NCBI GenBank assembly: GCA_027493945.1 | Contig: JAOSJU010000001.1 | Coordinates: 2,232,001 to 2,296,000, forward strand | Length of the DNA: 64,000 nt | Direction of reading: 5' to 3' | Origin: Burkholderiaceae bacterium | Lineage (GTDB): Bacteria; Pseudomonadota; Gammaproteobacteria; Burkholderiales; Burkholderiaceae_E | Shown: positions 10,823 to 31,748 of the stretch, one piece after another | How the letters are laid out: every line of letters begins with the position of its first letter | Numbering within the stretch: position 1 is the stretch's first letter | Notes under the pieces: generated by a model | What the model was told of the DNA's origin: nothing | Seen by the model: only the letters and a program-made list of their open reading frames with translations | Databases searched by the model: none | Made by a program: the position numbers and the translations under genes

Positions 10823-10936
10823 GTATAACGTTCGAGGTAAGCGGCCGCCAATGGCTTGGGCCGGCGGAACCACAATGACCACTGGTGGTGTAGCCGGCCC
10901 AAGCCGTTGACGGTCCGCTTGACCGAGGGGTTAGAC
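10823..10936 (-). other. attC: attC recombination site (114 bp), HigBA type
   Basis: It is bounded by GTATAAC at 10823-10829 and GTTAGAC at 10930-10936. It carries the same 13-bp perfect inverted repeat as the attC sites at 6242 and 9307. Confidence 0.9.
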
Positions 10937-11236: not shown

Positions 11237-11246
11237 GTCTGAACTC

Positions 11247-11537: not shown

Positions 11538-11546
11538 GCGCGCACT

Positions 11547-11562
11547 GTATCACATAGGATAC
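11547..11562 (-). promoter_or_regulatory. HigBA operator/promoter candidate
   Basis: GTATC-N6-GATAC, 10 bp upstream of the first toxin gene and present at the same place in all three HigBA cassettes. Confidence 0.5.
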
Positions 11563-11590
11563 GGGCGAAGCAAGACGGGCGTTTGGTGCG

Positions 11591-11979
11591 GTCTAACGTG
11601 TTTTGGTTTGCAGCGCGCAGCCGGATAAATCTGGACCCACCGGCGTAACCCGTCCACACCCGCGCCGGTATGCGCTTGTCGCGACAGGTCTTTTCTCCAC
11701 CACCACCCCTCCGCGTCAGACGTAACGCCAGGGCAATCTCGGCTCCGTAGCGCTACCGGCGCTCCCCGATTCCGCGCCCCTCGTTTGCGGGCCGAAATAA
11801 TCCAGGGCCCCGCCGGATAACCTGGACACCCACCCCCGTGCGACGCGCGGCGATCGCGGCCGCCGGGGACTTTCGGCTTTCGAATCGACCTATAAACGGC
11901 CAGCAAAGGACGCAAGCCAGCCCGGATTTAATCCATTTTGCATAGTTCTTCGGCATGTGACCAGTAGTACCGCCCGACG
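11591..11979 (-). other. attI: attI-like junction and intI leader region
   Basis: GTCTAAC at 11591-11597 marks the junction between the first cassette and the platform; the flank beyond it is unrelated to attC, as expected for attI. The next about 380 bp carry no convincing gene. A near-direct repeat, GCCGGATAAATCTGGACC at 11620 and GCCGGATAACCTGGACAC at 11812, may be integrase-binding repeats or the trace of another element. Promoters for intI and the cassettes are expected here. I saw no clear -35/-10 pair and no proper LexA box. Confidence 0.65.
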
Positions 11980-17135: not shown

Positions 17136-17225
17136 GGCGCTGCGATCTTACGCGATGCGCGCGGCCGGGCCGGGCCCCCCGGCGGATGCGGCCCGGTTAC
17201 CCGGCGCGACGCACGCCCGCGCCGC

Positions 17226-18233: not shown

Positions 18234-18252
18234 ACTGATTATTTTAATTCGT
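18216..18252 (+). promoter_or_regulatory. OxyR operator candidate
   Basis: Four tetramers with strict 7-bp spacing, ATCG-N7-CGAT-N7-ATTA-N7-TCGT, lie between oxyR and the rubrerythrin gene. OxyR binds four elements with this 4-7-4-7-4-7-4 geometry. The first pair is a perfect palindrome and the second is weak. Position and spacing support it; the sequence deviates from the E. coli ATAG consensus. Confidence 0.45.
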
Positions 18253-18315
18253 TGGACCGATTTTAGCCCTACCGGCACACTGCGTCCATCGTCAACCGCA
18301 ACCAGGAGCTGCGAC

Positions 18316-18804
<489 letters not shown>

Positions 18805-18861
18805 CTCGCCACAATGGCGCCGAACACGAACCGACCAGTTTCAACACACGGAGAAAAGGAC

Positions 18862-19041
18862 ATGAGCGACATGAAGGCTTACCAGTGCATCGTCTGCGGG
18901 TTCATCTACGAAGAGGCCAAGGGCCTGCCCGAGGACGGCATCGCCCCCGGCACCCGCTGGGAGGACATTCCGGCGGACTGGGCGTGCCCCGACTGCGGAG
19001 TGGCGAAAGCCGACTTCGAGATGGTCGAGATCACGGCCTGA
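18862..19041 (+). CDS. rubredoxin
   Basis: A 59-residue protein with two iron-binding knuckles, CIVCG near the N-terminus and CPDCG near the C-terminus, and the conserved [16 protein letters not shown] stretch. A GGAG Shine-Dalgarno sequence precedes the ATG. It carries electrons from the reductase at 19057 to the rubrerythrin at 18316. The three genes are closely spaced and form one + strand operon. Confidence 0.95.
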
Positions 19042-19056
19042 GCGACGGCACGGCCC

Positions 19057-20208
19057 ATGGCACCGATCGTGATTCTCGGCAGCGGACTCGCGGGCTACAC
19101 GGTGGCCCGCGAGTTCCGCAAGCTCGACGCCGCGACGCCGCTCGTCGTCGTCACTCGTGACGACGGCGCGGTCTATTCGAAGCCTATGCTGTCGAACGCG
19201 CTCGCGGGCAACCGCAGCGCCGCCGCGCTGGCCAGCGCCGACGCCGCAGGCGCGGCCGCCCAGCTGAACGCGACGGTGCTCGCGCATCGCGAGGTCGCGT
19301 CGATCGACACCGCCGCGCGCGCGGTCGTGCTGGCCGACGGCGAGCGGCTCGAATACTCGCAGCTCGTGCTCGCGCTCGGCGCCGACCCGATCCGGGTGCC
19401 GCTCGAAGGCGACGCCGCCGACACGGTGATGCAGGTGAACGACCTCGGCGATTACGCGCGCTTTCGCGACGCGATCGAGAACGCCGCGCACGTGACGATC
19501 CTCGGCGCCGGCCTGATCGGCTGCGAGTTCGCCAACGACCTGCTCGCCAGCGGCCGCCGGGTCGACGTGATCGATCCGGCCCCGTGGCCGCTGGGCCGGC
19601 TGGTGCCCGAGCGCGTCGGCCGTGCGATGGCGGCGAAGCTGGGCGCAGCGGGGGTGAACCTGCGCCTGGGCACGACCGCCACCGCGGTCGAACGACGCGA
19701 CGGCAGCCTGCGCGTGAAGCTCGCCGACGGCAACACGCTTGACACCGACGCGGTGCTCTCGGCGATCGGGCTGCGCCCGCGCACCCAACTCGCGCAGGCC
19801 GCGGGGCTGGCGACGAATCGCGGCATCGTGGTCGACCGCCAGCTGCGCGCGAGCGCGCCCCACGTCTACGCGCTCGGCGACTGCGCCGAGGTCGAAGGCC
19901 AGGTGCTGCCGTTCGTGATGCCGCTGATGAATGCGGCGCGCGCACTGGCGAAGACGCTGGCGGGCGAACCGACCGACGTGCGCTATCCGGCGATGCCGGT
20001 GGTGGTGAAGACGCCGGCCGCGCCGCTCACCGTCTCGCCGCCGGCCGCAGCAGCCGAGGGCAGCTGGCGCTTCGACGAAGGCGCCGACGGCAGCCTGGAG
20101 GCCACCTTCGTCGACGCGGGCGGGAACCTGCTCGGCTTCGCGCTGCTGGGCGGCGCCCCCGCGACGCGCCAGGCGCTCACGCGGCGGCTGCCGGCGGTGC
20201 TCGGCTGA
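19057..20208 (+). CDS. rubredoxin-NAD(+) reductase
   Basis: A 383-residue FAD- and NAD(P)H-binding protein. It opens with the first dinucleotide fold (IVILGSGLAGYTVAREFRKL), has a second fold at VTILGAGLIGCEFANDLLAS, and an FAD contact in HVYALGDCAEVEGQVL. The architecture is that of rubredoxin reductase, which passes electrons from NADH to rubredoxin. It lies 15 bp after the rubredoxin gene, completing a self-contained peroxide-reducing chain. The C-terminal domain is the usual reductase dimerisation domain. Confidence 0.92.
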   Translation: MAPIVILGSGLAGYTVAREFRKLDAATPLVVVTRDDGAVYSKPMLSNALAGNRSAAALASADAAGAAAQLNATVLAHREVASIDTAARAVVLADGERLEYSQLVLALGADPIRVPLEGDAADTVMQVNDLGDYARFRDAIENAAHVTILGAGLIGCEFANDLLASGRRVDVIDPAPWPLGRLVPERVGRAMAAKLGAAGVNLRLGTTATAVERRDGSLRVKLADGNTLDTDAVLSAIGLRPRTQLAQAAGLATNRGIVVDRQLRASAPHVYALGDCAEVEGQVLPFVMPLMNAARALAKTLAGEPTDVRYPAMPVVVKTPAAPLTVSPPAAAAEGSWRFDEGADGSLEATFVDAGGNLLGFALLGGAPATRQALTRRLPAVLG

Positions 20209-20230: not shown

Positions 20231-21628
20231 CTACTCCTCGATGCCGTAGCGCTTGACCTTGCGCCACAGCGTCGACTTGTCGATGCCGAGGATCTCCGCG
20301 GCCAGGCCGCGGTCGCCCTTGGTCTCGCGCAGCGTCTTGGCGATGAAATACGCCTCCATCTCGTCGAGGCTGCGCGGCGAGAGCAGGTCGAGCGCGCGCG
20401 CCTGCGCGCCGCTGCCTTCCGAGAGCCGCGGAGGCACGACTTCGGTCCCGATCGGGTCGGTCTCGCTGAGGATGATCATCCGCTGCACGACGTTTTCCAA
20501 CTCGCGCACGTTGCCCGGCCAGTCGTAGCGCATCAGCGCGCCCAGCACCGCGGTCTTGAAGCCGGCGACGGGCTTGCCCAGGCGCACCGAGTGCTTGTTC
20601 AGGAAGTAGTACGCCAGCAGCGGGATGTCCTCTCGGCGCTCGCGAAGCGGCGGGATCGGAATCTCGATTACCGAGAGCCGGTAGAAAAGGTCCTCGCGAA
20701 ACCGGCCCTGCGCGACCAGATCGCCGATCGGCTGGTTGGTCGCGGCGACCAGGCGCACGTCGACGCCGACCGGCTCGGTGGCGCCGACCGGGTAGAAGAC
20801 GCCGTCCTGCGCCACGCGCAACAGCTTCGCCTGCAGCGCCATCGACGCGTTGTTGACTTCGTCGAGGAACAGCGTGCCGCCGTCGGCGGCCTCGAACAGG
20901 CCGATCTTGTTGCGCTCGGCGCCGGTGAACGCACCCTTGCGGTAGCCGAACAGTTCGCTTTCGACCAGCGTCTCGGGTATCGCCGCGCAATTGATGACCA
21001 CGAAGGGCCGGGCCTTGCGGGCGCTGCGCAGGTGGATCTGGCGCGCCACGAGTTCCTTGCCGCTGCCGCTCGGGCCGCTCACCAGCACGCTCGAGTCGTA
21101 GGCGGCCGCCGCCGTGATCAGGCGCTCGATCTGCTCCCGGGCCTGCGATGCGCCGATGATCTCGCCGCCCTGCTCGAAGTTGCGCTGCTGCTGGCGCAGG
21201 CGCTCGTTTTCGGTGGCCAGCAGGTAGTGACGCAGCGCGTTCTCGACGACGCAACGCAGCTTCACCGTGTCGAACGGCTTCTCGACGTAGTCGTAGGCGC
21301 CCTCCTTGAGCGCGGCGACCGCCGATTCGACGGTGCCGTGGCCGGTCACCAGCACGACCTGCGTTTGCGGATCGCGTTGCCGGACGAACTTCAGCAGGTC
21401 GAGGCCGCCAGCGCCCGGCATTCGCAGGTCGGTGACCACGACCGCCGCGTGATCGGCCTCGAAGAGGTCCATCGCCTCGTGCGCGTCGGCCGCGGTGACG
21501 ATCTCGACCTTCGTCTCGATCTCGTCCAGCACGGCAACGATCAGCTCGCGCATGCGCCGGTCGTCCTCGGCGACGAGAATTCTCGGCGTGGCGGCCGTCG
21601 CCGCCGGCGCTGCGCCTTGCCCGGTCAT
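20231..21628 (-). CDS. sigma-54-dependent response regulator (NtrC family)
   Basis: A 465-residue protein. A receiver domain (phospho-acceptor Asp67 in [12 protein letters not shown], Lys in YVEKPFD) is followed by an AAA+ domain with Walker A GPSGSGKE, the sigma-54 contact loop [10 protein letters not shown], Walker [13 protein letters not shown] and the sensor [21 protein letters not shown] Fis-type HTH lies at the C-terminus ([20 protein letters not shown]). It activates RNA polymerase with sigma-54. It is encoded by the last gene of the leftward cluster, overlapping the kinase gene by 4 bp. The sigma-54 promoter at 30966 is its likely target. Confidence 0.93.
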
Positions 21629-23088
21629 GCGCCGGCGCGACCGAGATCGACCGCGGGCAGCGTCACGACGAAGCGGGCGCCGCCCGCATGGTCGCCGTCA
21701 TAAGCAATGAAGCCGCCGCGCCGCGTGACGATCGCGTTGGAGATCGGCAGCCCCAGCCCCGTGCCCTGTCCGACGGTCTTCGTCGTGAAGAACGGATCGA
21801 AGAGCCGGCTGCGCAGCTCGGAGGGCACGCCGGGTCCGTTGTCGGAAACGCTGATGCACACGTTCGAAGCGTCCCTCCAGGTGCGCACCACGATCCGCGG
21901 ATCGGGCACTTTGTCGAGCGCGTGGATGGCGTTGACGATCAGGTTGGTGAGAACGATGTCGAGCTGGCCGCACCCTCCCTCCGCGACCAGTTCGCCGGGG
22001 GCGAGATCCGTGCGAGCCTCGATCTGGTAGCGCCTGAGGCGGCACTCGACGAAGGTCTCGACCAGTTCGCGCACCAGCTGGTTGACGTCGCAGGTCTCGT
22101 CGCTGCATCCGTCCTTGCGCGCGTAGCCGAGCAGTTCATGCACCACCCGCGAGCAGCGGCGGGTCTCCTCGGCGATGATGCGCGCGTACTCGGCCAGCCG
22201 GGGCTGGCCTTCGGCACCGCGTTCGAGCAGCTGCGCATAGCCGAGCACGTTGCCCAGCGGCGTGTTGAGCTCGTGCGCGACGCCGGCAGCCAGCTGCCCC
22301 ATCGCGACCAGCTTCTCGCGCATCGTCACGGTTTCCATCAGCGCCCGGTGCTCGGTGATGTCCTGCAGCGTCAGCACGCTGCCCATGTCGTTGTCGAGAT
22401 CGCTGTAGAACGCGAGGTTCAGCGCGATGTAGCGTGTCTTGTCGCCCAGCCTGAGCCCCACCTCATGGTTGCGCACCACGTACTTGTAGAGGAAGGCGTC
22501 GCGCAGCACCGCCCGGTCGCGCTCGGGCAGGTCGAGCAGGTCGAACAGGTTCTCCCCGACCAGCTGCCCGGTCTCGACGCCGAACAGTGCATCGGCCTGG
22601 CGGTTGGCGACGCTGACGCGCAGGTCGTCGCCGATGCTCAGCAGACCGACCGGCAGGCTCTGCAGGATCGTGTTGATGCGGTTGCGCTCGTCGAGAAAGC
22701 GCCCCTGACACTCGACCACACTCTGGAACGTGAGCCCGACTCTCGACACCGTCGTGTTGTACTCGGGGATGAGCCTGCCCGTGAGGGTGCCCGCGTGGGG
22801 CCCGATCGGCAGGGGCTCGAAGCGGCCCTCGGAGGCGAGACGGATGCCGCGCCCCAATTCCCTGACCGCGGCCAGTTCGGCCGCAACCCACGCCAGAAGC
22901 CAGCCCGCCGCGGCCGCGAGCGCCGTGCCGATCGCCCACGCGGAGCGGTCGTCGTGCCAGAACGCACCGACGACCGCATAGGCGAGCGAGGACAGTGCCG
23001 CCCCGGCGAACGGCCTCCAGCGGCCGCGAAGCGCGAGAAACGCAGGCGCCGTCCCACCGGATGCGCCCGCGATCGGCAGCGATGCCAT
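21625..23088 (-). CDS. PAS-domain sensor histidine kinase
   Basis: A 487-residue membrane kinase. Two N-terminal hydrophobic segments (about 27-43 and 50-72) are followed by a PAS domain (about 135-245), a HisKA domain with the phospho-acceptor His272 in GQLAAGVAHELNTPLGNVLG, and an ATPase domain (IVLTNLIVNAIHAL, SDNGPGVP, GQGTGLGLPISNAI). The short periplasmic loop leaves little room for an external sensor, so the PAS domain probably senses the signal. It is encoded 67 bp after the porin and is its response regulator's cognate partner by overlap. Confidence 0.92.
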   Translation of the reverse strand: MASLPIAGASGGTAPAFLALRGRWRPFAGAALSSLAYAVVGAFWHDDRSAWAIGTALAAAAGWLLAWVAAELAAVRELGRGIRLASEGRFEPLPIGPHAGTLTGRLIPEYNTTVSRVGLTFQSVVECQGRFLDERNRINTILQSLPVGLLSIGDDLRVSVANRQADALFGVETGQLVGENLFDLLDLPERDRAVLRDAFLYKYVVRNHEVGLRLGDKTRYIALNLAFYSDLDNDMGSVLTLQDITEHRALMETVTMREKLVAMGQLAAGVAHELNTPLGNVLGYAQLLERGAEGQPRLAEYARIIAEETRRCSRVVHELLGYARKDGCSDETCDVNQLVRELVETFVECRLRRYQIEARTDLAPGELVAEGGCGQLDIVLTNLIVNAIHALDKVPDPRIVVRTWRDASNVCISVSDNGPGVPSELRSRLFDPFFTTKTVGQGTGLGLPISNAIVTRRGGFIAYDGDHAGGARFVVTLPAVDLGRAGA

Positions 23089-23155
23089 GCCGACCCCTCG
23101 CGACCCGATTCCGGCCGGCGCAGGGGCGGCGAGCGCCCCCGGGCAGGATCGGAAA

Positions 23156-24335
23156 TCAGAAGATGAACTGCAACCCCAAAGTCAGCTGATTATAGTCGCG
23201 CAGCGAGCGGTTCGAGGGGTCGGGAGTGTCGAACTTCACCTTGGCATACTCGAGGCTCACCTTGAGTTTCTGCCCGTCGAGATACCAGTTCGCGCCGATG
23301 CTGTTCCACTTCTGGTCGTAGTACTCGGCGTTGCCGACCTTGACTCCGTAATCGGAGTTCTCGTGACGCGCGAAGAACTGCAGACGGCCCGGACCGACCT
23401 TGCCGGGCAGCATGTAGCCGCCCTTCAGGTAGAAGCCCTTCAGGTCGCTGTTGACCGGCAGATCGGGATCGGGCGACTGGTTGTATGCGTCGCCGGTGTC
23501 GTACTTGAACGCGGCTCCCGACAAGGTGTAGACGCCGCTGCGCGCCGGGTACTCCATGAACGCATCGACCGTCCAGGCCTTGTAGTCCTTGATGTCGCGG
23601 CGTAGCAGCCAGTCGCCGTAGGCGACGCTCGACTGCGTGTCGTAGGCGGCGCCGATCGTCAGCACCTTCGCGGTGCCCAGATAGGTGCCGAGGTAGCCGT
23701 AGTTCCGACTCCGGGTCCCAGAAGCTGTAATGGACGCGCGCGGTCAGCCGCGGGTCTTTCTTCGGCACGTACGTGCCCTCGCGACCGTCGGCCACCATGA
23801 AGCGGTACTGCAGGCGGGCGTCGAGCAGGTTGCCCCAGATCGCGAGCCCGGTGTCGCGGCTGCCGCCGAAGGGCGTGTACGACAGCACCTCGGCCCGGTC
23901 CATCGTGAGCGGCTCGAGACAGGCCTCGAGGTTCTCGCGCGAGAACGTGTTCTTGAACCGGCCGACGATGAAGCGCAGGTCGTCCCGGTAGTCGAGAGTG
24001 ACGTAGGCGTCGCGATAGTAGACGCTCTTGTTGTCCTGGCCGTAGCGGCTGTCGTTGCCGGCTTCCAGTTGCGCATAGAAGCCGACGTAGTCGTTGTACT
24101 GGCCGGAGAAGGTGAGCCGGTTGCGGCGCAGGAACGCATCGGTGGACGAACCCGTGTTCGTGTCCGACGTGAAGCTGCGGTGCTGCATCCAGCCCTGCAG
24201 CGCATAGCTGATCGTGAGCGACCCCTGGTCGCCGAACTGGATCGTGGGGCCGGCGAGAGCCGACAGCGGCAGTGCGCCGGCGACGAGCGCGGCGCAGCAC
24301 GCGCCGCGGACGGACATCCTGGTGGATTTCTTCAT
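23156..24335 (-). pseudogene. extI: outer-membrane porin, ExtI-like, frameshifted
   Basis: A protein of about 392 residues with a signal peptide (MKKSTRMSVRGACCAALVAG, cleavage after ALA) and alternating aromatic beta-strands such as YVGFYAQLEAGNDSRYGQ and LKGFYLKGGYMLPGKVG, ending in the outer-membrane Phe (LGLQFIF). One extra G near 23705 shifts the frame; without it the two parts join as WDPESNYGYLGTYLG. Length, neighbours and order match the porin of Geobacter ext clusters, which takes up selenite or forms the barrel of a cytochrome conduit. The exact family call is from context. Confidence 0.72.
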
Positions 24336-24336
24336 C

Positions 24337-24837
24337 TCACTTCGCTCCGGCAGTTGCGGCGTAGGCGCCTTGGACCTTCGACAGGTCGCTGGCATGGCAG
24401 CCGGCGCACGAGCCGGCGGTGTCGTCGCGCGGTTTGGCGACCATCTTCGCGTGCGCGATGTCCTCTTTCATGATCCTGGGGTTGCCCTTGTGACAGCCGG
24501 CGCACGAGTTGTTCACCTTCGAGTGCTGCGCGTGCCAGGGCGACTTCTTCGCATCCATGTCGGGCGCTTTCGCGCGCGTGCCGTTGTGGCACTTGAAGCA
24601 GCTCGATGCACCCAGGCCGCACGCGTTGGCCAGCGGAATCGGCGACACCTTCGAGGCGCTGTCGGCCAGCGCCGATACGGCCTCGGCGCCCCAGCCGGCG
24701 GACGCGCGCGCATCCGCTTCGTCGAGGTTTCCGGTGCCCGGGCCGGCCAGCAGCGCCATGCCGATCGCCAGCGCGGACAGCAGCCCGCTGCGCCAGGCCC
24801 ATGTTCTCCAGCCTGCCTTGTCGTGCGCGTGTCTCAT
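24337..24837 (-). CDS. periplasmic triheme c-type cytochrome (ExtM-like)
   Basis: A 166-residue protein with an N-terminal membrane or signal segment (SGLLSALAIGMALLAGPGTG) and three CxxCH haem motifs: SCFKCHNG, SCAGCHKGN and SCAGCHAS. Scattered His residues (WHAQHSK, EDIAHAKMV) may supply distal ligands, as in cytochrome c3-like proteins. Its stop lies 1 bp from the porin start, so the two are coupled. It would carry electrons in the periplasm to the porin-cytochrome complex. The Ext name is by position and size. Confidence 0.78.
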   Translation of the reverse strand: MRHAHDKAGWRTWAWRSGLLSALAIGMALLAGPGTGNLDEADARASAGWGAEAVSALADSASKVSPIPLANACGLGASSCFKCHNGTRAKAPDMDAKKSPWHAQHSKVNNSCAGCHKGNPRIMKEDIAHAKMVAKPRDDTAGSCAGCHASDLSKVQGAYAATAGAK

Positions 24838-25112
24838 TTGCCCTCCTCCCTCTGTTGATCCTGTCGTTCGGCGCCCGGCTTCGCCGTGGCGGATTCGCCG
24901 CCCGGCGCGGGCTTGTCGGCCGCCTGCTGCTGCGATCCGGATCCGAAGCGCGCTTCCCACGCCTTGCGGATCTCGTTCTCGCCCAGGCCCGATTCGCAGG
25001 CGCAAACGGGCCCGCGCGAGCGGTATTTCAGGCGCGGCGGATCGGCAGCCGCCTGGGCAACCGCCGCCGTGAGCAGCCACGCGAGCACGAACGAGACTCG
25101 AATCGAAGTCAT
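24834..25112 (-). CDS. small exported protein (ExtJ-like)
   Basis: A 92-residue protein with a signal peptide (MTSIRVSFVLAWLLTAAVAQ, cleavage near AQA-AAD). The mature part begins with RGPVCACESGLGENEIRKAW, including a CxC pair, and ends in a charged Gln/Glu/Lys-rich tail. It overlaps the triheme cytochrome gene by 4 bp. A short periplasmic protein at this place is also present in ext operons (ExtJ). The vicinal cysteines could bind or reduce selenium, tellurium or sulfur species, which is speculation. Confidence 0.6.
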   Translation of the reverse strand: MTSIRVSFVLAWLLTAAVAQAAADPPRLKYRSRGPVCACESGLGENEIRKAWEARFGSGSQQQAADKPAPGGESATAKPGAERQDQQREEGK

Positions 25113-25254
25113 GGTTCCGCAATGCACGAAGCGCCGTGCCGATCCTGTTGAACGCACACACCGTGCCAGGATCGGGCTCTCGTCAAATCAATGGCTTATC
25201 GGACGCTGCGGCCGCGCGCCGAATTGCAGCGCGCGGGTTGGCCGAAGCAATCTT

Positions 25255-26505
25255 TCAATTTGCAATCGATGCAGCGACGGGCGCGGCGGCCGGCGGTGCA
25301 GCGACGATGCGGGTCAGGTCGTACTCGGCCGACAGCACGTCGGCGAGCGCCTGGCGAAGATGCGAAACAGCCTGTGCAGGCAACTGCGCGTCGCGCGCGA
25401 GATGTTCGCGATACATCCGCTCGTAGTGTTCGCCGGGCTTCACGCGCACCACGAGTTCGACTTTCCAGCCCCCGGCGCGGGGAGCCGTGAACGGCACTGC
25501 GAACTCGCGCGACTCGCCCGCGGGAATGCGCGTGTCCTCGATCTCGCGAGTGAGCTGCGTGTCGACCGTCCAGCCGATCACCTGGCGCCCGAGCGTCCGT
25601 GTCGAACCGTCGGGATCGCGACGCAGGAACTCGAGCTCGACCTTCGGCACCATGTACGTCGGAAAGTGGTGGCCCGCGCCGACGTTGCGCACCCGGGCGC
25701 GCGCTTCGTAGCGGCCCTCGCCCGGCGCAACCACTTCGAGGCCGAGGTCGAGCGCGCTGCGCGTGGTGTCCGGGTCGTGAATGCCGCGCCACGAATGCTG
25801 TCGCTCCGGCATGTGGCACGACTGGCAGGTACGGTTCGGTGCCATCGGGCTCGCGGCCCACTGGTTCCAGGTGTCCTCGAAGAGCTTGCCCTCGACGCGC
25901 GGGCCGTCCGGCGGGAACTGGTGGCAATGCGCGCAGAAGCTGCTGTCCTGGAATGCCGCCGACGCGGTGAAGCCGCCGTGCGCGGTACCGCTTTGCACAT
26001 CCGGCCGGGCCGGTGGGCCGAAGCGCCGGTGGTCGCGCACATGGCAGGCCGCGCAGACCAGGCCCTGATGACCGAGATCCGCTTCGACGTAGCCGGGTGG
26101 CGGCAACAGCGGCGCAGCCTGCCATTCGTGCTCGATCGCAAGAAGCGCTTTCTGTTCGGCCAATGGGGCGTGGCAGCGAAAGCATCGATTCGCCTGCGCC
26201 TGGTCCATGAGCCTGAGCTGCCAGAGCAGGCCCGGACCGACGCTGCGGCTGTGCAGGCTGCTGCGCCACGCTTCGTATTGCTGCTCGTGACACTGGCCGC
26301 AGGCCCGGGGCGACAGCGACGCTTCGAGGGCCGAAAAGCCGGCGGGCGGAGGCCCCTGTGGAGGAAGGGGCTCCGCCCAGTGCCGGTCGAGGAAGAGCTC
26401 GACCGGTGGCGGCGCCGCTGGCCGCTGGTCACAGCCGGCCGACAGCGCGGCTGCGACGAGCAACAGCGACAGCGCGCCGCGCCGCACGCGGGCCGGGCGC
26501 CTCAC
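25255..26505 (-). CDS. pentaheme c-type cytochrome lipoprotein (ExtKL-like)
   Basis: A 416-residue lipoprotein from a GTG start at 26505, with lipobox LSAGC at Cys25. Five CxxCH motifs are visible: ACGQCHEQ, CFRCHAPL, CAACHVRD, FCAHCHQF and CQSCHMPE. The C-terminal third has no haem and looks like a beta-rich domain (GAGHHFPTYMVPKVELEFLR). Five haems plus lipid anchor plus this soluble domain match the multiheme lipoprotein of Geobacter extHIJKL. A role in electron transfer across the outer membrane with the porin is inferred. It follows the rhodanese gene by 19 bp. Confidence 0.82.
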   Translation of the reverse strand: MRRPARVRRGALSLLLVAAALSAGCDQRPAAPPPVELFLDRHWAEPLPPQGPPPAGFSALEASLSPRACGQCHEQQYEAWRSSLHSRSVGPGLLWQLRLMDQAQANRCFRCHAPLAEQKALLAIEHEWQAAPLLPPPGYVEADLGHQGLVCAACHVRDHRRFGPPARPDVQSGTAHGGFTASAAFQDSSFCAHCHQFPPDGPRVEGKLFEDTWNQWAASPMAPNRTCQSCHMPERQHSWRGIHDPDTTRSALDLGLEVVAPGEGRYEARARVRNVGAGHHFPTYMVPKVELEFLRRDPDGSTRTLGRQVIGWTVDTQLTREIEDTRIPAGESREFAVPFTAPRAGGWKVELVVRVKPGEHYERMYREHLARDAQLPAQAVSHLRQALADVLSAEYDLTRIVAAPPAAAPVAASIAN

Positions 26506-26524
26506 TGCGACCGGCCGGCGCGCG

Positions 26525-28015
26525 TCAGCCGCCGCAAGGGTTCGTCGGGCTGCCCGACCCGCCCGGGCGCCCGGCGACCGGCGACTCGCCCGTCTTGTAG
26601 GCCGAGTCGGCTCGCACGATCGCATCGGCCGACCGGGCATAGGCGTTGGTGATGGTGCGCGGTGCCACCAGCGAACTGTCGCTCGCTGCGCGGGAGAACG
26701 ACCGGACGTCGGTGCGCCATGGCGAGTCGGCCGGCAACAGGGAGGTGCCGTTGCGATCCTTGATGTACGAGAGAGAGTTCCATTCGACCATGGCGCCGTC
26801 GTAGAAGCGCGTCGGCAGGCCGAGAACCGCGGCGGTGGCAACGCCGGTGATCATCGCGCGGAAGGTGGTCTCGCAATAGGTGTAGATCGTATCACCGGGC
26901 TGGTAGGCGCTGCCCTGGCCGACGAGCCGGTAGCTTCCGTCGATGAATCCGTAGCCGTTCGCGTCCGTCTCGCCGTTGAGGTAGGCCTTCAGCACGGCCT
27001 TCGGCTTCCAGCTGTTCCCCTTCGTGCTGTCGAGCAGGTTGGTGTAGTTCAGCTGCAGCGAACCCCACGGATGCCCCTGGCGCGAGCCGCTGTTCTGGAA
27101 CTTCGACATGTAGTTGAACGACACGTTCGCTGAGCAATACGGCACGCCTGTGGTGAGCGAGGTGCAATTCGCGTCCTTGACGTCGCCGCCTTCGAGGAAC
27201 TCGCCGGCGCTGAACTGACCGGCATCGCGCGCGTCCCAGATGAAGACGCCATCGGCACGCTGGTTCAGGTCGCTGGCCGGCAGGATCTTCAGCATGTCGG
27301 CGAAGGTGGCCTGCAGCTGGGTGTTGTCCACCGGCAGCTGCTTCACCGAGATCGTGCCGCTGTTTGGCGCGGTGCCCGCGGCCGCCCGGAAGTAGCTGGC
27401 GGCGGGCAGCAGCGCGCCGCCGGTGCCGTTCCACTGGTTGCTGCCGTTGAGCAGTGCCAGGTTCGCCTTGTCGACACCCCCAGTAGCGCAGCGTGTACCA
27501 GCAGCGGCCCTGGGTCATCACGTTGCTCGGGCTCGATGCGCCCTGGGCACAGACGATCATGTCGTTGCGCGGGTCGATGTTGTATTTCTTCAGCAATGCA
27601 TCCACGCCCGGTCCGTCGAGCACCATCTGGATCGTCTCGATCACGCCGTTGTTGCGTACCGGGTCCAACCCCCCTCGAGGTAGGTGAACACGTTCTTGCC
27701 GTCGGACTTCAGGTACTCGTAGCCGGCCGGGCCCGCCGTGACCTGCAGGATCACCAGCTTGCCGGTGAGGCCCGCCGGCCGATTCGCGGGCCAGTCGTCG
27801 ATCCAGCGCTTCAGCGTCGCGCCCGAGATCACGCCATTGACGTTGTCGTCGTAGCTGTCGGCGGACTCCTGCGCAATCTGCGCCGGCGAGTTGACCGTCA
27901 GCTTGGTCGCCACGGCGCTCGTGTCCTCGCCACCACCGCCACCGCATCCCTGCAGGCCCAGCACGAGGCCCAGCACGGCCGCCCCGCCCAGCTTCGTCAT
28001 CGTTCGCGTCCTCAT
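26525..28015 (-). pseudogene. extH: rhodanese-like lipoprotein, ExtH-like, two frameshifts
   Basis: A lipoprotein of about 495 residues beginning at 28015 after a GAGGAGG Shine-Dalgarno sequence, with lipobox LQGC at Cys24 followed by a Gly run. Rhodanese features include DNVNGVISGATLKRWIDDWP and, late, an active-site-like Cys in TYCETTFRAMITGVATAAVL. Two homopolymer indels break it: a missing G in the G-run at about 27668 and an extra G at about 27477. With both corrected the protein is continuous. ExtH heads the ext operon of Geobacter and is a rhodanese family lipoprotein. Sulfane or selenane handling at the outer membrane is inferred. Confidence 0.78.
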
Positions 28016-28070
28016 CCGGAGTCCCTCCTCGTAGTTCGTCCGTCGGCCGTCCGCCCCCGGGGCCGATCGA

Positions 28071-28268
28071 TCAGCCATCTGCCGGCGCCTTGAGCACGAC
28101 CGGCATGAATCCTTCTTCCAGCGCATCGAGCAGCGCTGCGCAATCGCCCGAGGGCGCGAGCTCGAACTCGCGCACCTGCGCCCCGGCATCGCGCAGGGCG
28201 GCGGCGAGACCGTCGACCGCGGGCACGCCCGCCGGCCTGACCAGAAGCACCCGTTTCGCCGCGTTCAT
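28071..28268 (-). CDS. small protein of the DsrE/TusA gene block
   Basis: A 65-residue protein with a Rossmann-like opening (KRVLLVRPAGVPAVDGLAAA) and a single Cys in SGDCAALLDALEEG. No family can be named by eye. It overlaps the preceding DsrE-like gene by 4 bp and precedes the rhodanese lipoprotein by 55 bp. Size and location suggest a sulfur-relay helper of the DsrE/F/H or TusBCD type, but this is inference. Confidence 0.5.
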   Translation of the reverse strand: MNAAKRVLLVRPAGVPAVDGLAAALRDAGAQVREFELAPSGDCAALLDALEEGFMPVVLKAPADG

Positions 28269-28522
28269 ACCCAGTACACCACGTCGCTGTCGAGAATCCG
28301 CGCGGCGAGCTGCGCCACGCGGTCGGCCTCGTTCAGGGCGGCGACGGGCACGTCGGCGAAGTCGAGTGCCTGCATCTGTTCGTCGATCGCAGGGCCGATC
28401 GGCATCGCGCCCCAGACGGCCACTTCGATGCGGTCGTCCAGCAGCGTGAGGCCGGCAGCCATTCGCATGGCCTCGCCCTTGTTGTGGGCCGCGACCATCA
28501 GGATGCGTTTCGGATCCGTCAT
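28265..28522 (-). CDS. DsrE-like small protein
   Basis: An 85-residue protein. KRILMVAAHNKGEAMRMAAG followed by RIEVAVWGAMPIGPAIDE resembles the alpha/beta core of DsrE/DsrF proteins, which carry sulfur as persulfides or help such carriers. It has no cysteine, so it would be a non-catalytic partner. It starts 10 bp after the Cys-containing DsrE-like gene and overlaps the next ORF by 4 bp. Confidence 0.6.
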   Translation of the reverse strand: MTDPKRILMVAAHNKGEAMRMAAGLTLLDDRIEVAVWGAMPIGPAIDEQMQALDFADVPVAALNEADRVAQLAARILDSDVVYWV

Positions 28523-28532
28523 GAGCCGCCCT

Positions 28533-28844
28533 TCAGAGAACCAGCACCTGGTCGCAGACGTGCGCGAGCTGCGCGTTCTGATACTGCCCACCGAACACGA
28601 CGGGGCCCGCGAGCCCTTCGCGTCCGAAGCGCCCCGCCGCGTGGAGCTCGACGCTGTGCTCGCAGACCGTGACCGTGTCCGGGTGTGCGCGCGCGCGTCC
28701 CAGGAACCCGGCGTCGGCAAGCAGGTTCACGCCGGTGTCGGTGAGGAAGCACTGCACCTGCCAGCCGCGCGCGAATGCGGCGTCGAGCAGCCCGCTCGCG
28801 TGCGCCGCAAACGCCTCGTCGGTAATCACGATTCCGAGCCGCAT
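28533..28844 (-). CDS. DsrE-family protein with candidate catalytic Cys
   Basis: A 103-residue cytoplasmic protein with the DsrE-like fold: MRLGIVITDEAFAAHASGLL, WQVQCFLTDTGVNLLAD and DTVTVCEHSVELHAAG. The cysteine in VTVCEHS lies where DsrE-like sulfurtransferases carry the persulfide. It follows the TusA-like gene by 3 bp, and TusA to DsrE transfer is known from sulfur oxidisers. It may accept sulfur or selenium from TusA. Confidence 0.7.
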   Translation of the reverse strand: MRLGIVITDEAFAAHASGLLDAAFARGWQVQCFLTDTGVNLLADAGFLGRARAHPDTVTVCEHSVELHAAGRFGREGLAGPVVFGGQYQNAQLAHVCDQVLVL

Positions 28845-28847
28845 CGA

Positions 28848-29099
28848 TCAGGCCTTGCGGATCTTCCACGCGAACGAACCGCCTTCTTCGCGGCGCTCGA
28901 ACAGCTCGTCGCCGTCGGTCTCGCACATCGCCATGATCGACTCGCCCGACGATGGGTTGTCGAACAGCACCGTGAGGACGTCGCCGCTCGCCATCTTCTG
29001 CAGGGCCTTCTTCGTGTACATCTGCGGGTGCGGACAGGTGTAGCCGCAGACGTCGAGCTTCCACTCATGCTCGCCGACCCGGTCGAAAGTCATTGCCAT
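28848..29099 (-). CDS. TusA-family sulfur carrier
   Basis: An 83-residue protein with the TusA motif in LDVCGYTCPHPQMYTKKALQ, where the second Cys (C-P-x-P-like CPHP) is the persulfide carrier. The remainder (GDVLTVLFDNPSSGESIMAM) matches the two-layer TusA fold. It lies between the YeeE/YedE gene and the DsrE block, so it probably receives sulfane sulfur or selenium moved by the channel. An AGGGAG sequence precedes the ATG at a usable distance. Confidence 0.88.
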   Translation of the reverse strand: MAMTFDRVGEHEWKLDVCGYTCPHPQMYTKKALQKMASGDVLTVLFDNPSSGESIMAMCETDGDELFERREEGGSFAWKIRKA

Positions 29100-29135
29100 C
29101 GCCGATCTCCCTTTTCGTTCAGCAGCCGCGCGGCG

Positions 29136-30557
29136 TCAGAGCGCCGACGCCTCGTTGCGGGCCGCGCTCCATTCCATCCACCAGGTAAACGCCTTGACCC
29201 CGACCCAGGCGCCGGCGGCCATGCCGAGCAGGAACACCCAGCCGCTCGGGTCGCCGTTGGTGACCGTGGCGAAGAAGGCGCCGATGTTGCAGCCCATGCC
29301 GATCCGCGCGCCGATACCCATCAGCGTGCCGCCGACCAGCGCGAAGATCGCCGACTCGAGGTTCGGGAATTTCCACTTGAATTCGCGCCGCGCGAGCGCC
29401 ATGGCCGCGGCCCCCAGGATGATGCCGATCGACATGAACCCGGGCGCGTTCAGAAGCGGATTGGGCAAGCCGTTGTCGAGGCCGAAGTAGATGTTGTCCG
29501 TGCCCATCAGGCCGAGCTCGTTCAGCAGCCAGCCGCCCCATTGCGCTTCCTGCGTGGTGATGTACCAATAGCCGGGGTCGAACACCGTTTCCTGAATCGA
29601 CAGGCCGTTGGTGTAGCCCATCGCCGCGAGCAGCTCGCCAAAGTTGAAGATGCCGTAGTGGTTGCGCAGCGCGCCGGTGACCCACATGTGAAGGCCGGCG
29701 AGCACGCCCAGCCCGATGCCCGCGATCGCGGTGTTCTTCGACGAGGTGAACATCGACCAGAGGCCGGCCAGTTCGTCGGCGAACGACGGCGCGGTTCTTT
29801 TCGCGCGTCGCATGTAGCCCTTGCGGTAGTAGCGCAGGTAGAGCGCGAGCAGAATCACGGTCACCGGGATGAACGCGGTCAACAGCATGTTGGCCAGCAG
29901 GATGCCGGCCGGCGTGCCCCCGACGCCCAGCGCGTCGGCGGTGGTCGTGCCCTTCAGGTCCCAGATGTGGCCCGCGGTGAAGAGGTCGAACCAGCCGCGG
30001 GTCACGCTCAGTTCCGCCGGCATGTCCTTCGCGGCGGCCGACGCCACCCACGAAGACGGCACCAGCGCGTCCCACCACCCGCTCGCGCTCACCACGATCG
30101 CCTGCGAGAACGAGATCGCGACGATCACGAGCATCGCGTTCATGTTGCCTTCGCCGGCCTTGTACAGCGACCCGGACGCGCAACCCCCGGTGAAGACGAT
30201 CCCGAAGCCGAAGATCGCGCCGCCGACAAGCACGTGCCAGCCGAGCACGTTCGGATGGAAGGTGCTGAACCCGCTGAGCGTCACGATCGCCGCGACCGTC
30301 GCGTACAGCGCGACCGCGATCATCATTCCGACGGCCATCCGCGGCACGCCGACCGCGAACAGGTCGCGCACCGCCGAGGCCATGCAGAAGCGCCCGTACT
30401 GGAGCAGCGCCCCGTAGGCGAGGCCGAACCACGCGTAAACGAGCAGGTAGACGAAGCGCGTGTCGACCGACAATGCCCACACCGAGCCGAGCACCACCAG
30501 CGCCACCACCCCGAGCGCCCGCCGATTCGCGCTGCGGCGGACCGCCTCCGTCTGCAT
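29136..30557 (-). CDS. YeeE/YedE-family membrane transporter
   Basis: A 473-residue polytopic membrane protein with two YeeE/YedE halves. Conserved cysteines stand in QYGRFCMASAVRDLF, FTGGCASGSLYKAGEG and GIGARIGMGCNIGAFF, the positions that relay thiosulfate in characterised YeeE. Start at 30557 with GGAG upstream. YeeE takes up thiosulfate, and the related YedE is linked with selenium metabolism. It is flanked on both sides by TusA-like genes, the usual partners of this family, and belongs to the sigma-54-controlled cluster. Confidence 0.9.
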   Translation of the reverse strand: MQTEAVRRSANRRALGVVALVVLGSVWALSVDTRFVYLLVYAWFGLAYGALLQYGRFCMASAVRDLFAVGVPRMAVGMMIAVALYATVAAIVTLSGFSTFHPNVLGWHVLVGGAIFGFGIVFTGGCASGSLYKAGEGNMNAMLVIVAISFSQAIVVSASGWWDALVPSSWVASAAAKDMPAELSVTRGWFDLFTAGHIWDLKGTTTADALGVGGTPAGILLANMLLTAFIPVTVILLALYLRYYRKGYMRRAKRTAPSFADELAGLWSMFTSSKNTAIAGIGLGVLAGLHMWVTGALRNHYGIFNFGELLAAMGYTNGLSIQETVFDPGYWYITTQEAQWGGWLLNELGLMGTDNIYFGLDNGLPNPLLNAPGFMSIGIILGAAAMALARREFKWKFPNLESAIFALVGGTLMGIGARIGMGCNIGAFFATVTNGDPSGWVFLLGMAAGAWVGVKAFTWWMEWSAARNEASAL

Positions 30558-30606
30558 GTTCACTCCGCCCTCTCCCAGTGCATGTGCATGCCGCGCCCGT
30601 CCGCGC

Positions 30607-30924
30607 TCAGGTGCCACGGCGCAGGTAGATGCGCCAGTGCCCGGTCTCGCGAACAGTCGCCCGGTGCTCGCAGTCGAGCTTCATCGCAAGCGCCGGAAAG
30701 CCCTCGGCGGCCGCCGCGTTGTCAGTGAGCACCTCGATGACCTCCCCCACACCACTCTCGTCGACGACCTTCACCGTCAGCAGTTGCGGGCGCGGGCACA
30801 TCTCGCCCAGACAGTCGATCGACCGCGCGACGGCCACGACGCCCCGGCCCGGCAGTTCGACCATCCGCAACACGGAAACCGGGGGACTGCGCCGCCTCCA
30901 CAGGAGGCGGTCAAACCAGCCCAT
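30607..30924 (-). CDS. TusA-family protein with N-terminal extension
   Basis: A 105-residue protein. Residues about 30-100 are a TusA domain with the carrier motif in SIDCLGEMCPRPQLLTVKVV. The first about 30 residues (WFDRLLWRRRSPPVS) are basic and amphipathic and not part of the fold; they may bind the membrane. It is the first gene after the sigma-54 promoter candidate and precedes the YeeE/YedE gene by 49 bp. It would deliver or receive sulfane sulfur or selenium at the channel. Confidence 0.82.
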   Translation of the reverse strand: MGWFDRLLWRRRSPPVSVLRMVELPGRGVVAVARSIDCLGEMCPRPQLLTVKVVDESGVGEVIEVLTDNAAAAEGFPALAMKLDCEHRATVRETGHWRIYLRRGT

Positions 30925-30965
30925 GGCTCATCCCTTCGCTTTCCGCAATTCGACGAAAGTCAACA

Positions 30966-30981
30966 AGCAGGCAACGTGCCA
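30966..30981 (-). promoter_or_regulatory. sigma-54 promoter candidate
   Basis: On the minus strand TGGCACG-N4-CTGCT matches the -24/-12 consensus TGGCACG-N4-TTGCW with one change. It points at the TusA-YeeE-ext cluster, with the first gene starting about 40 bp downstream. A CTTGCCG / CGGCAAG inverted repeat at 31010-31016 and 31034-31040 lies at a distance suited to an enhancer-binding activator. The cluster ends with a sigma-54 activator gene, which supports autoregulation. Confidence 0.7.
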
Positions 30982-31109
30982 GCATGGAAACCCCCTTGAG
31001 AAACAATCGCTTGCCGAAGAGTGCCCGGTCGGGCGGCAAGTGAAAAATGCAATCCGCCACCGACGGCGGTGAATTACGCAACGGCTGGCGGCAGCGCCCG
31101 GCGCCGGCG

Positions 31110-31400
31110 TCAGCCGAAGCCTGCCGCCTTCTGGTGACGCACCGCCAGTACATCGACACGGTCGGGCACGCGCCGGTGACGATAGAGGGCGACGTAGCCG
31201 CTTCTGCCATGGCCGATGACCAACTCGCGCAGCGCCGCGTCGACCGGCCGACCGATCTGCGGGTGGCGCTCGAGCACGGCCAGCGCGTCGAGAATCGCTT
31301 CCAGCGCCGCATCGGCGTCGCCGGATGGCGCCTCGCGCAGGAAGTCGACGATGCGCTCCAGATCGGCGAGCGCGCGAGCGCTCATCACGACCAGTGCCAT
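31110..31400 (-). CDS. ParE/RelE-family toxin
   Basis: A 96-residue protein taken from ATG at 31400. VVMSARALADLERIVDFLRE, VLERHPQIGRPVDAALRELV and SGYVALYRHRRVPDRVDVLAVRHQKAAGF are typical of ParE/RelE toxins. The long frame upstream is continuous with the antitoxin, so a fusion of 212 residues is read if no frameshift is assumed. As separate genes, the toxin starts about 25 bp after the antitoxin stop at 31427. ParE acts on gyrase and RelE on mRNA; which applies here is unknown. Confidence 0.75.
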   Translation of the reverse strand: MALVVMSARALADLERIVDFLREAPSGDADAALEAILDALAVLERHPQIGRPVDAALRELVIGHGRSGYVALYRHRRVPDRVDVLAVRHQKAAGFG

Positions 31401-31426
31401 GGGGGCAGTGCCGAATGAGCCCCGGA

Positions 31427-31748
31427 TCAGCCTCGCGGCTGCCGTGTACGCTTGCCGGGTTTCGCGGCCGCTTCGGACACCGGCGCAGGACGCTTCGTCC
31501 GGCGGCCGGCAAGGCTCGAAGCGCAGATACGCGGCGACCTCGTCCATGGCGAAGACGGGGCCGCCGGTGTCGATGTCTGCCGCGCTACCGCGCGCTTCGC
31601 CGATGAATGCCTGCCGCAGGTCGGCCAGCGTCACCTGCGCCTGCAAGGCCTCGACCATCCACGCGTGCGGCGTCTTGCCCGCCGCGGCAGCAAGCGGAGC
31701 AATCCGCGCCTTGAGATCGGCCGGAAGTTTCAGCGTGGTGGTGGACAT
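31427..31748 (-). pseudogene. ribbon-helix-helix antitoxin, apparent frameshift
   Basis: MSTTTLKLPADLKARIAPLA and KTPHAWMVEALQAQ form a CopG/MetJ-like DNA-binding domain, followed by a toxin-binding acidic stretch (VFAMDEVAAYLR). After AYLR the printed frame runs on into the toxin. Shifting by one base at about 31515 gives the usual basic antitoxin tail (AGRRTKRPAPVSEAAAKPGK) and a stop at 31427. I prefer the two-gene reading because the intervening residues of the fused frame look like noise. Confidence 0.65.

Follow-up and report, generated by a model that had tools for sequence, protein, structure and literature searches.

Deletion of extI in the ext cluster of Geobacter has a clear phenotype, which is poor reduction of selenite and tellurite (PMC5877670). 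The YTD cluster has been published with the gene order yedE-tusA-dsrE-chp-chp (PMC9751629), and its role, for which a link to sulfur disproportionation has been considered, is described differently in two reports that are at odds with each other (PMC12998232, PMC13293266). In cable bacteria, DsrEFH type II has been published as handing sulfur to DsrC (PMC13293266). In Desulfurivibrio dismutans a porin gene is co-localised with genes for lipoprotein rhodanese-type sulfurtransferases and YeeE, and the authors suggest that this neighbourhood serves sulfur import (PMC12142623).

The locus

The window is the whole stretch of DNA that was analysed, 64,000 nucleotides from a Burkholderiaceae bacterium. 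Its positions 20231-30924 hold 13 neighbouring genes, all on the minus strand. Open reading frames and domain searches recover each gene listed in a preliminary description of this DNA, on the strand, in the order and at the place claimed. The slot that it had given to "DsrE-like proteins" is filled by three small proteins of 103, 85 and 65 aa. The Pfam search finds TusA twice, Sulf_transp (YedE), five plus three CXXCH hemes and a PAS-HisKA-HATPase protein. The genes and two sigma-54-type sites are as follows:

30967..30981, minus strand: sigma-54-type site TGGCACGTTGCCTGC before the TusA1 start, 9/10 consensus positions
30607..30924, minus strand: TusA1, sulfur carrier, 105 aa (PF01206, E 2.5e-15; Cys43 in 54/54 aligned)
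29136..30617, minus strand: YedE/YeeE inner-membrane sulfur transporter, 493 aa (PF04143, E 1.3e-46)
28848..29099, minus strand: TusA2, sulfur carrier, 83 aa (PF01206, E 2.4e-19; Cys22 in 65/65)
28533..28844, minus strand: DsrE-class protein, 103 aa, proposed DsrE of DsrEFH type II (Cys61 in 57/57)
28265..28522, minus strand: small conserved protein, 85 aa, proposed by position as second DsrEFH type II subunit
28071..28268, minus strand: small protein, 65 aa, proposed by position as third DsrEFH type II subunit
26525..28015, minus strand: ExtH-like rhodanese lipoprotein, C-terminal NPCGG, frame broken (NF040901, two of three pieces)
25255..26505, minus strand: pentaheme cytochrome, distantly ExtKL-like, 416 aa (NF040886, 46 bits; cut-off 250)
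25154..25168, minus strand: second sigma-54-type site TGGCACGGTGTGTGC before the C-x-C gene, 9/10 consensus positions
24834..25112, minus strand: small exported C-x-C protein (both Cys in 45/45 detected)
24337..24837, minus strand: triheme cytochrome with an extra invariant Cys (ANACGLGASSCFKCH; three CXXCH in 74/74 loci)
23156..24335, minus strand: ExtI outer-membrane porin, frame broken at about 23697 (NF040900)
21625..23088, minus strand: PAS sensor histidine kinase (PAS, HisKA, HATPase_c; within conserved order)
20231..21628, minus strand: NtrC-type response regulator with GAFTGA (family match; within conserved order)

The meaning of GAFTGA we take to be the one familiar from NtrC-type regulators. 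The start of the C-x-C gene is an ATG picked by eye, and the ORF tool begins the frame at 25157. Two breaks interrupt the rhodanese frame, at about 27660 and at about 27476, and a single one, at about 23697, interrupts the porin frame; G-runs lie close by. These three breaks are probably assembly errors, since both genes are unbroken in a relative and dsrB, which lies in another part of this assembly, also matches in two frames. A tRNA search of the window gave nothing of use.

Conservation and regulation

Many beta- and gammaproteobacteria, often sulfur oxidisers, preserve the 13-gene run. All 13 genes recur in the same order in a genome from another family; 12 of them are 56-76% identical to those of the window, and the C-x-C protein is 58% identical over 31 aligned residues. 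The run is not a product of chance, because its order recurs in other families. The neighbourhood survey covered 79 loci with ExtI, all taken from named records. YedE and/or TusA2 adjoin the ext genes in 67 of the 79, and the other 12 are uninformative since their contigs end too early to judge. The linked loci have four layouts: standard (55), interleaved (8), divergent (3) and one with the YTD genes downstream. Three loci appeared to have ext genes without sulfur carriers, and this layout was rejected when synteny on both strands found the carriers divergent and adjacent. Pairwise distances for six genes of the unit across 47 loci are correlated (r 0.60-0.90). Thus synteny, correlated distances and the promoter-like sites described below bear out the earlier claim that an ext-type module, a sulfane-carrier chain and a sigma-54 pair form one conserved unit.

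Cultured bearers of the unit include Thiohalobacter thiocyanaticus Hrh1, with the standard layout, and Rubrivivax gelatinosus IM 151, with a reduced one. Solimonas, Cellvibrio and Hydrocarboniphaga retain a reduced unit; we do not know any of these three as sulfur lithotrophs. Genome counts given here include related genomes and are not independent.

Sigma-54-like sites were sought upstream of the genes with a score of at least 8, and the expectation was taken from shuffles. They precede TusA1 in 46/53 stretches (4.4 expected) and the C-x-C gene in 37/40 (3.45 expected). The sites also exceed the shuffles before TusA2 (16/55, 6.15 expected) and ExtH (19/55, 4.6 expected), so either the scan is imperfectly specific or further sigma-54 sites exist. 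The layout that has no regulator has 0/8 sites before ExtH against 1.55 expected, a lack that is not significant.

The sulfur-carrier block

YedE has three invariant cysteines among the sequences covering each site: Cys78 (62/62), Cys146 (63/63) and Cys443 (64/64). The window protein fails the selenium-YedE models (NF033796, 152 bits with a cut-off of 350; TIGR04112, 63 with 200) and the thiosulfate TsuA models as well (NF052577, 98 with 400; NF041049, 81 with 645).

The window has the yedE-tusA-dsrE-chp-chp order of YTD and DsrEFH type II. AlphaFold models the DsrE-class protein with a pLDDT of 89. The six best Foldseek matches of this model are all DsrE-family proteins with probabilities of 0.96-1.00, and the best E value is only 2.2e-3. 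The 85-aa and 65-aa proteins match no Pfam or NCBIfam family. The former is kept in the unit across loci, the latter is detected in 38 loci, and neither has a conserved Cys. We propose by position that they are the second and third DsrEFH type II subunits. The trio then has one conserved Cys, Cys61 of the DsrE subunit, as DsrEFH type II does, and the DsrE subunit is the one that was modelled. The trio is similar to DsrEFH type II as published for the YTD cluster.

The outer-membrane module

The preliminary description had likened the porin, rhodanese and cytochromes to Ext proteins, and the models uphold this for the porin. Its two halves score 168 and 156 bits against ExtI (NF040900), each over the cut-off of 150; unbroken relatives score 334-382, and Porin_O_P matches both halves. 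The likeness is looser for the rhodanese. The window pieces of ExtH score 31 and 32 bits against NF040901 (cut-off 200) with no match for the third piece, three intact orthologues fail the same cut-off with 97, 110 and 118 bits, and the Pfam Rhodanese match is under its own cut-off. One orthologue, that of locus L034, has a two-domain rhodanese fold (match to 1e0c, E 6.5e-13). The C-terminal tail of ExtH ends in exactly PCGG in 61/68 loci. A selenocysteine at this end was considered and rejected: the codon after PCGG is TGA in 42 cases, TAA in 17 and TAG in 2.

The pentaheme protein also falls below its model, ExtKL/MccSep NF040886, with 46 bits in the window and 42-48 in three orthologues against a cut-off of 250. 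A 246-residue piece of MccSep itself scores 384 bits. A profile search with the pentaheme family does match the PDB entry of MccSep (E 9.5e-11), and the window copy has the lipobox LSAGC. The MccSep selenocysteine position, 325, was identified in an alignment; located by motif in 72 loci, it holds Met in 57, Leu in 11 and Val in 4; the window has Met. The triheme cytochrome keeps Cys73 in 75/75. The C-x-C protein matches no family in Pfam or NCBIfam. No protein of the unit passes the ExtM or ExtS models (19-27 bits for the triheme protein), and the genes for ExtM, N, O, P, Q and S were not found nearby, judging the unit by the ExtM/ExtS models and the flanks by eye. Searches of solved structures with the ExtI and ExtH profiles were uninformative, and so was a scan of viral contigs with ExtI.

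Co-occurrence with dsrA and selD

The genome of the window carries dsrA. Among the genomes tested, dsrA is over the cut-off in 29/36 with the standard layout versus 0/7 with the interleaved one (p 1e-4), which has lost the DsrE-type trio. Four of the 36 standard-layout genomes (L083, L103, L113, L131) have no dsrA above other sulfite-reductase-like matches. In a random sample of the class dsrA occurs in 112/369 genomes, in 6/9 with ExtI versus 106/360 without it (p 0.025), which is a weak link. Two of the three ExtI genomes without dsrA in this sample are 99-100% complete. An obligate tie of the unit to reverse Dsr is rejected on the standard-layout and class-sample counts. The DsrE subunit is over the cut-off in 9/9 class-sample genomes with ExtI versus at least 20/360 without it; up to 13 candidates were scored per genome, so 20 is a lower bound. 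Genome searches of nine family mates found no ExtI, no dsrA over the cut-off and no DsrE subunit. One genome (L134) has ExtI with dsrA, the DsrE subunit and selD all not over the cut-off.

A link to selenium use was considered through selD and rejected, as selD does not track the unit. It is over the cut-off in 25/36 standard and 1/7 interleaved genomes, and in 9/9 family mates that lack the unit. It is worth adding that selD informs on the use of selenium and not on its detoxification. Taken together, these patterns of occurrence point towards sulfane sulfur and the reverse Dsr pathway.

A proposed relay and its alternatives

On balance we favour a scenario in which the products of the 13 genes form a relay under a sigma-54 switch, carrying zero-valent (sulfane) sulfur on protein cysteines from the outside or outer membrane to the cytoplasm. 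ExtH, which we infer to sit at the surface, would load sulfur on its active-site Cys and pass it to the Cys of the flexible NPCGG tail. SoxY has a C-terminal GGCGG carrier arm, and the tail may act in the same way. ExtI would then let the sulfur through to the periplasm, and its acceptors there would be the C-x-C protein and the triheme cytochrome with its extra Cys. The three- and five-heme cytochromes may give or take electrons as S-S bonds open or form. YedE would move the sulfur across the inner membrane to TusA2, and DsrC and reverse Dsr would receive it from the DsrEFH type II trio. The two-component pair, PAS kinase and NtrC-type activator, would turn on both transcription units. Conserved cysteines are found along this path. 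The relay does leave unexplained why a sulfur importer needs eight hemes.

It is worth weighing what else these genes could do. The preliminary description had suggested import or reduction of selenium or tellurium oxyanions. ExtI would admit selenite or tellurite, the cytochromes would reduce it and the TusA/YedE chain would handle the products. In its favour, the porin passes the ExtI model, the pentaheme protein is distantly related to ExtKL/MccSep, and G. sulfurreducens without extI reduces selenite and tellurite poorly (PMC5877670). However, Met, Leu or Val replaces the ExtKL selenocysteine in 72/72 loci, no protein of the unit passes ExtM/ExtS, the ExtH and pentaheme orthologues are under their cut-offs, and neither selD nor the other co-occurrence data agree with it. 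The suggestion is not supported, and we regard it as distinctly unlikely. At the very least, an ExtI match alone should not be taken as evidence of selenite or tellurite reduction. Another possibility is extracellular electron transfer: porin and cytochromes would form a conduit that gives electrons to, or takes them from, minerals or sulfur outside the cell, and the sulfur genes would serve this conduit in an indirect way. The eight hemes and the Gallionella-type bearers (L085, L089) fit such a conduit, but the unit has no outer-surface multiheme cytochrome, and a chain of three hemes looks too short for the length of the barrel. The conserved sulfur carriers, the extra Cys and the Cys tail would also be unaccounted for, so this reading is unlikely.

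The anatomy of the unit is compatible with either direction, and the relay could run in reverse, exporting sulfane sulfur to form extracellular sulfur while the cytochromes draw off electrons. All YeeE proteins studied so far are, to our knowledge, importers, and we regard the reverse direction as very unlikely. Two unrelated operons that are neighbours by accident would explain why DsrE-YedE-TusA clusters without ExtI occur in other members of the class. This is scarcely credible given the linkage in four layouts, with every informative locus linked, and the sigma-54-like sites that precede both blocks.

We raise more tentatively a narrower form of the import relay, as a possibility, in which the unit is dedicated to importing zero-valent sulfur, in insoluble or polymeric form, across the entire envelope. 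It would combine a surface rhodanese arm, a persulfide crossing by porin, cytochrome and thiol, and delivery by YedE, TusA and DsrEFH type II under one sigma-54 switch. Elemental sulfur is insoluble and would have to cross the outer membrane to reach the cytoplasmic oxidation enzymes. If the dedicated importer is real, we know of no earlier worked-out route by which elemental sulfur enters through the outer membrane, and the relay, if true, may account for bacterial use of insoluble sulfur. The unit is a concrete candidate for such a route and is open to knock-outs; it places a sulfurtransferase lipoprotein, a porin, hemes and thiols of the periplasm, an inner-membrane transporter and cytosolic carriers under one switch.

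Comparison with known systems

ExtH and SoxY both end a flexible C-terminal tail with Cys-Gly-Gly. The tail of ExtH sits on a rhodanese, which is another fold, and its use as an arm is putative. The Geobacter extHIJKL(MNOPQS) clusters share the ExtI porin, the rhodanese lipoprotein, a small exported protein and an ExtKL-like pentaheme cytochrome with the window unit (PMC6148476, PMC5877670). Unlike them, the window unit has no ExtM-S among its proteins, fails the ExtH and ExtKL models and has Met, Leu or Val in place of selenocysteine. It also includes YedE, TusA, the three DsrE-type proteins and a two-component system of the sigma-54 kind, whereas most Geobacter-type ext clusters have a LysR regulator.

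The claim that the combination had not been described as one unit holds in part. The YedE-TusA-DsrE part matches the published YTD/DsrEFH type II cluster (PMC13293266), and D. dismutans provides a precedent for a porin beside a lipoprotein sulfurtransferase and YeeE, as in the window unit (PMC12142623). However, the text consulted of that report does not describe a conserved unit that includes cytochromes, a regulator or a promoter (PMC12142623). The YTD cluster has the same order of YedE, TusA, DsrE and two small proteins (PMC13293266, PMC9751629, PMC12998232), and DsrEFH type II likewise has a single functional Cys, in DsrE only, and a link to Dsr (PMC13293266). The window unit differs by its second TusA in front, its outer-membrane module and its regulator, and units of its type are found in beta- and gammaproteobacteria, mostly together with dsrA.

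Gene content and conservation of the unit

The gene set and order that the preliminary description read from this stretch are real. Domain and family searches of the open reading frames confirm 13 genes on the minus strand of the window; the pieces of broken frames were searched separately.

Minus strand, in order: TusA1, YedE, TusA2, three small proteins (103, 85 and 65 aa), rhodanese lipoprotein (ExtH), pentaheme cytochrome (Cyt5), small C-x-C protein (CxC), triheme cytochrome (Cyt3), porin (ExtI), PAS histidine kinase, NtrC-type activator
Window 26525-28015, minus strand: rhodanese gene, two frame breaks near G-runs
Window 23156-24335, minus strand: porin gene, one frame break near a G-run

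We take these breaks as assembly errors: a relative has both genes unbroken, and dsrB, which lies outside the unit in this assembly, likewise matches in two frames. That the three breaks lie close to G-runs, in genes conserved apart from them, suggests indel errors.

ExtI is over its cut-off in 2 of 300 Burkholderiales genomes, this one and one of another family. In this second genome all 13 genes are present and keep the same order, 12 of them at 56-76% identity and CxC at 58% over 31 residues. Across the class it is 9 of 369 genomes, this one counted, and the other eight all bear the unit with variations. There is a single distinct TusA at L058. L063 has one TusA, and its YedE has diverged (two pieces at 33-40%). 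Two genomes have the unit split over two contigs (L056 with L189; L059 with L190, where the kinase and regulator lie upstream). Scanning the named records yielded 79 ExtI loci, whose bearers include Thiobacillus, Thiohalobacter, Thiohalomonas, Thioalkalivibrio, Thiogranum and Gallionella, and also Rubrivivax, Lautropia, Solimonas, Cellvibrio and Hydrocarboniphaga.

Table. Layouts of the 79 ExtI loci
Standard: 55 loci; 48 span YedE through the regulator, 7 are cut by contig ends
Interleaved: 8 loci; ExtH, Cyt3, ExtI, YedE, TusA2, Cyt5, without the DsrE trio or regulators (in L139 TusA2 follows ExtH)
Divergent: 3 loci; L098, L102, L105
YTD genes downstream: 1 locus; L106
Uninformative on linkage: 12 loci; contig ends at most 3.4 kb upstream of ExtI

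The claim that an Ext-like conduit is merged with a TusA/DsrE/YeeE relay is supported, since the ext genes are linked to YedE/TusA in 67 of the 79 loci and the full order recurs in another family. The two blocks are very unlikely to be unrelated neighbours. An ext block without YedE/TusA was never seen where the contig is long enough to tell. The 65-aa and C-x-C genes were detected in 38 and 44 loci respectively, being often too diverged for the locus search. Pairwise distances of six genes correlate over 47 loci (r 0.60 to 0.90), though shared descent alone could yield much of this.

The carrier block is modular, because DsrE/YedE/TusA clusters occur without ExtI. Where ExtI is over cut-off, the class genomes all have the DsrE subunit (9/9). 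Of the 360 others at least 20 have it, a lower bound because the search scored at most 13 candidates per genome. Neighbourhoods were examined for ten of these 20. Six (L179-L184) have DsrE, YedE and TusA in a different layout or order without ExtI; in L182 and L183, the two examined closely, those genes are separated by one for a membrane protein of about 600 aa. L187 (3247-11059), named partly by eye, has no ExtI; there a kinase and an NtrC-type regulator accompany TusA, a YedE spread over two ORFs, exported rhodaneses and a DsrE-type trio. L188 resembles it. YedE was not seen at L185 or L186.

The surroundings of the unit in the window are as follows.

4400-13173: integron-like stretch
6667-6957, 9731-10021, 11247-11537: three near-identical RelE/ParE-family toxin genes in a lower-GC run beside the integrase, overlapping repeats of about 600 bp (98-100% identical)
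11980-13173, plus strand: integron integrase, over its curated cut-off
17071-20208, plus strand, adjoining the end of the unit: rubrerythrin-like ORF (by eye), rubredoxin and NorW-like reductase (both under NCBIfam cut-offs)
31110-31748, directly upstream of the unit: ORF resembling a DNA-binding start fused to a ParE-like toxin (by eye)
56291-58789: gyrB-like gene (by eye)
60949-61029: Rfam AsdA, antisense RNA of dnaA, above gathering score

Ext family membership

The unit is ext-like, but by family test the porin alone belongs to an Ext family. The two porin halves score 168 and 156 bits with the NCBIfam ExtI model, whose cut-off is 150, so this part of the Ext assignment stands. The rhodanese and pentaheme parts do not: three intact ExtH orthologues score 97-118 bits against a cut-off of 200, and the pentaheme protein scores 46 bits against the ExtKL model (42-48 in three orthologues; cut-off 250). 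Among solved structures, a profile built from 12 pentaheme proteins picks out the selenoprotein MccSep (E 9.5e-11). MccSep is ExtKL-type because a 246-residue piece of it scores 384 bits with that model. Relatives of the pentaheme protein (window gene 25255-26505) match the NCBIfam 'UshA-like (seleno)protein' NF041198 weakly, 10/12 at E 0.001.

A proposed cysteine path

In the alignments, the proposed path is lined by conserved cysteines. ExtH, predicted as a two-domain rhodanese by a structure model, has an active-site loop CETTFR in 42/68 sequences and variants in most others, with the Cys in all 67 covering sequences. Its C-terminal -PCGG is exact in 61/68, and the preceding stretch is Gly/Ser/Pro-rich and disordered in the model of the L034 orthologue. 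SoxY has a carrier arm, of which this tail may be reminiscent. C-x-C is kept in 45/45 CxC proteins, and the triheme protein has an extra Cys seven residues ahead of its first heme motif in 75/75. YedE has three conserved Cys, TusA1 and TusA2 one each, and DsrE has Cys61. Lipid anchoring of the pentaheme protein is not general since the lipobox Cys is present in 42/67 covering sequences.

Regulation

The sigma-54 consensus is TGGCAC-N5-TTGC. We scanned 250 bases before each gene match, requiring GG and GC and a score of at least 8 of 10, with expectations from shuffles. Sites precede TusA1 in 46/53 stretches (4.4 expected) and CxC in 37/40 (3.45 expected). The excess is lesser before ExtH (19/55 vs 4.6), TusA2 (16/55 vs 6.15) and Cyt3 (10/55 vs 3.5), and slight before Cyt5 (7/55 vs 4.1) and the regulator (6/50 vs 2.8). 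YedE, DsrE, ExtI and the kinase show no excess, their counts being equal to or lower than expected. Loci of the interleaved layout, which have neither kinase nor activator, give 0/8 before ExtH, which is no proof of absence because just 1.55 were expected. The consensus scan gives two candidates here.

Window 30967-30981: candidate sigma-54 site
Window 25154-25168: candidate sigma-54 site

The unit's own activator appears to target both blocks.

Sulfur or selenium

A role with selenium or tellurium oxyanions had been proposed alongside sulfur, and it is not supported, though it keeps a low probability. selD is over cut-off in 25/36 standard, 3/3 divergent and 1/7 interleaved genomes. It is also over cut-off in 9/9 family mates, none of which has the unit, and selenium use therefore does not track the unit. 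The position that aligns with the MccSep selenocysteine (residue 325), located across loci by motif, is Met in 57/72 loci, Leu in 11/72 and Val in 4/72.

This genome has dsrA over cut-off and none of nine family mates does (two of the same genus); ExtI and the DsrE subunit are missing from these mates too. For 49 of the 79 ExtI loci the genome was tested for dsrA. The gene is over cut-off in 29/36 with the standard layout, split or partial in three more (L070, L080, L099) and absent in four (L083, L103, L113, L131). The divergent layout has it in 3/3 and cut or rearranged loci in 2/3 (L134 is without). The interleaved genomes have neither dsrA (0/7; p 1e-4 against standard) nor the DsrE subunit (0/7), yet they retain YedE, TusA2 and the ext core. 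This is consistent with the trio serving reverse Dsr and the ext/YedE/TusA2 core being a more general sulfur entry. Within the class sample, where dsrA is over cut-off in 112/369, the link is weaker (6/9 ExtI genomes vs 106/360 without ExtI, p 0.025).

A reverse-Dsr operon is present elsewhere in this genome (L044 6968-9937 and L145 2339-14915; dsrA by model, dsrF, dsrH, dsrC, dsrM, dsrL and others by eye). Two DsrE-type relays may coexist there since a second YedE and a TusA lie near that operon. We argue that the unit most likely works as a switchable relay that carries sulfane sulfur from the outer membrane to sulfur oxidation in the cytoplasm.

Comparison with known systems

Among the matches listed in the literature searched, which left out most subscription journals, none describes the 13-gene unit. 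PMC6148476 reports that extHIJKL gives partial reduction of metal oxides. For Desulfurivibrio dismutans, PMC12142623 reports sulfurtransferase genes, one of them for a predicted lipoprotein, that share a neighbourhood with a porin gene and YeeE, and its authors suggest sulfur import. PMC12998232 places the YTD DsrE and its small proteins in three phyla only. PMC13293266 places some YTD-type proteins in Pseudomonadota, and the present unit agrees with this.

Neither Pfam (at E 0.01) nor NCBIfam has a match for any of the three small proteins, and one further domain search gave a single weak unrelated match. The predicted fold of the 103-aa protein (pLDDT 89) has DsrE-family proteins as its best six solved-structure matches, including DsrEFH 2hy5, at probability 0.96-1.00; the best E is 2.2e-3 and none reaches 0.001. 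Its Cys61 is invariant (57/57), and across loci the alignments of the 85- and 65-aa proteins have no conserved Cys. PMC13293266 calls such a trio beside yeeE/yedE and tusA DsrEFH type II, with the sole functional Cys in DsrE, and equates it with the YTD cluster, for which PMC9751629 gives the same gene order. The unit's trio is thus a candidate DsrEFH type II, judged by gene order, by the DsrE-type fold of the 103-aa protein and by the sole conserved Cys in that protein.
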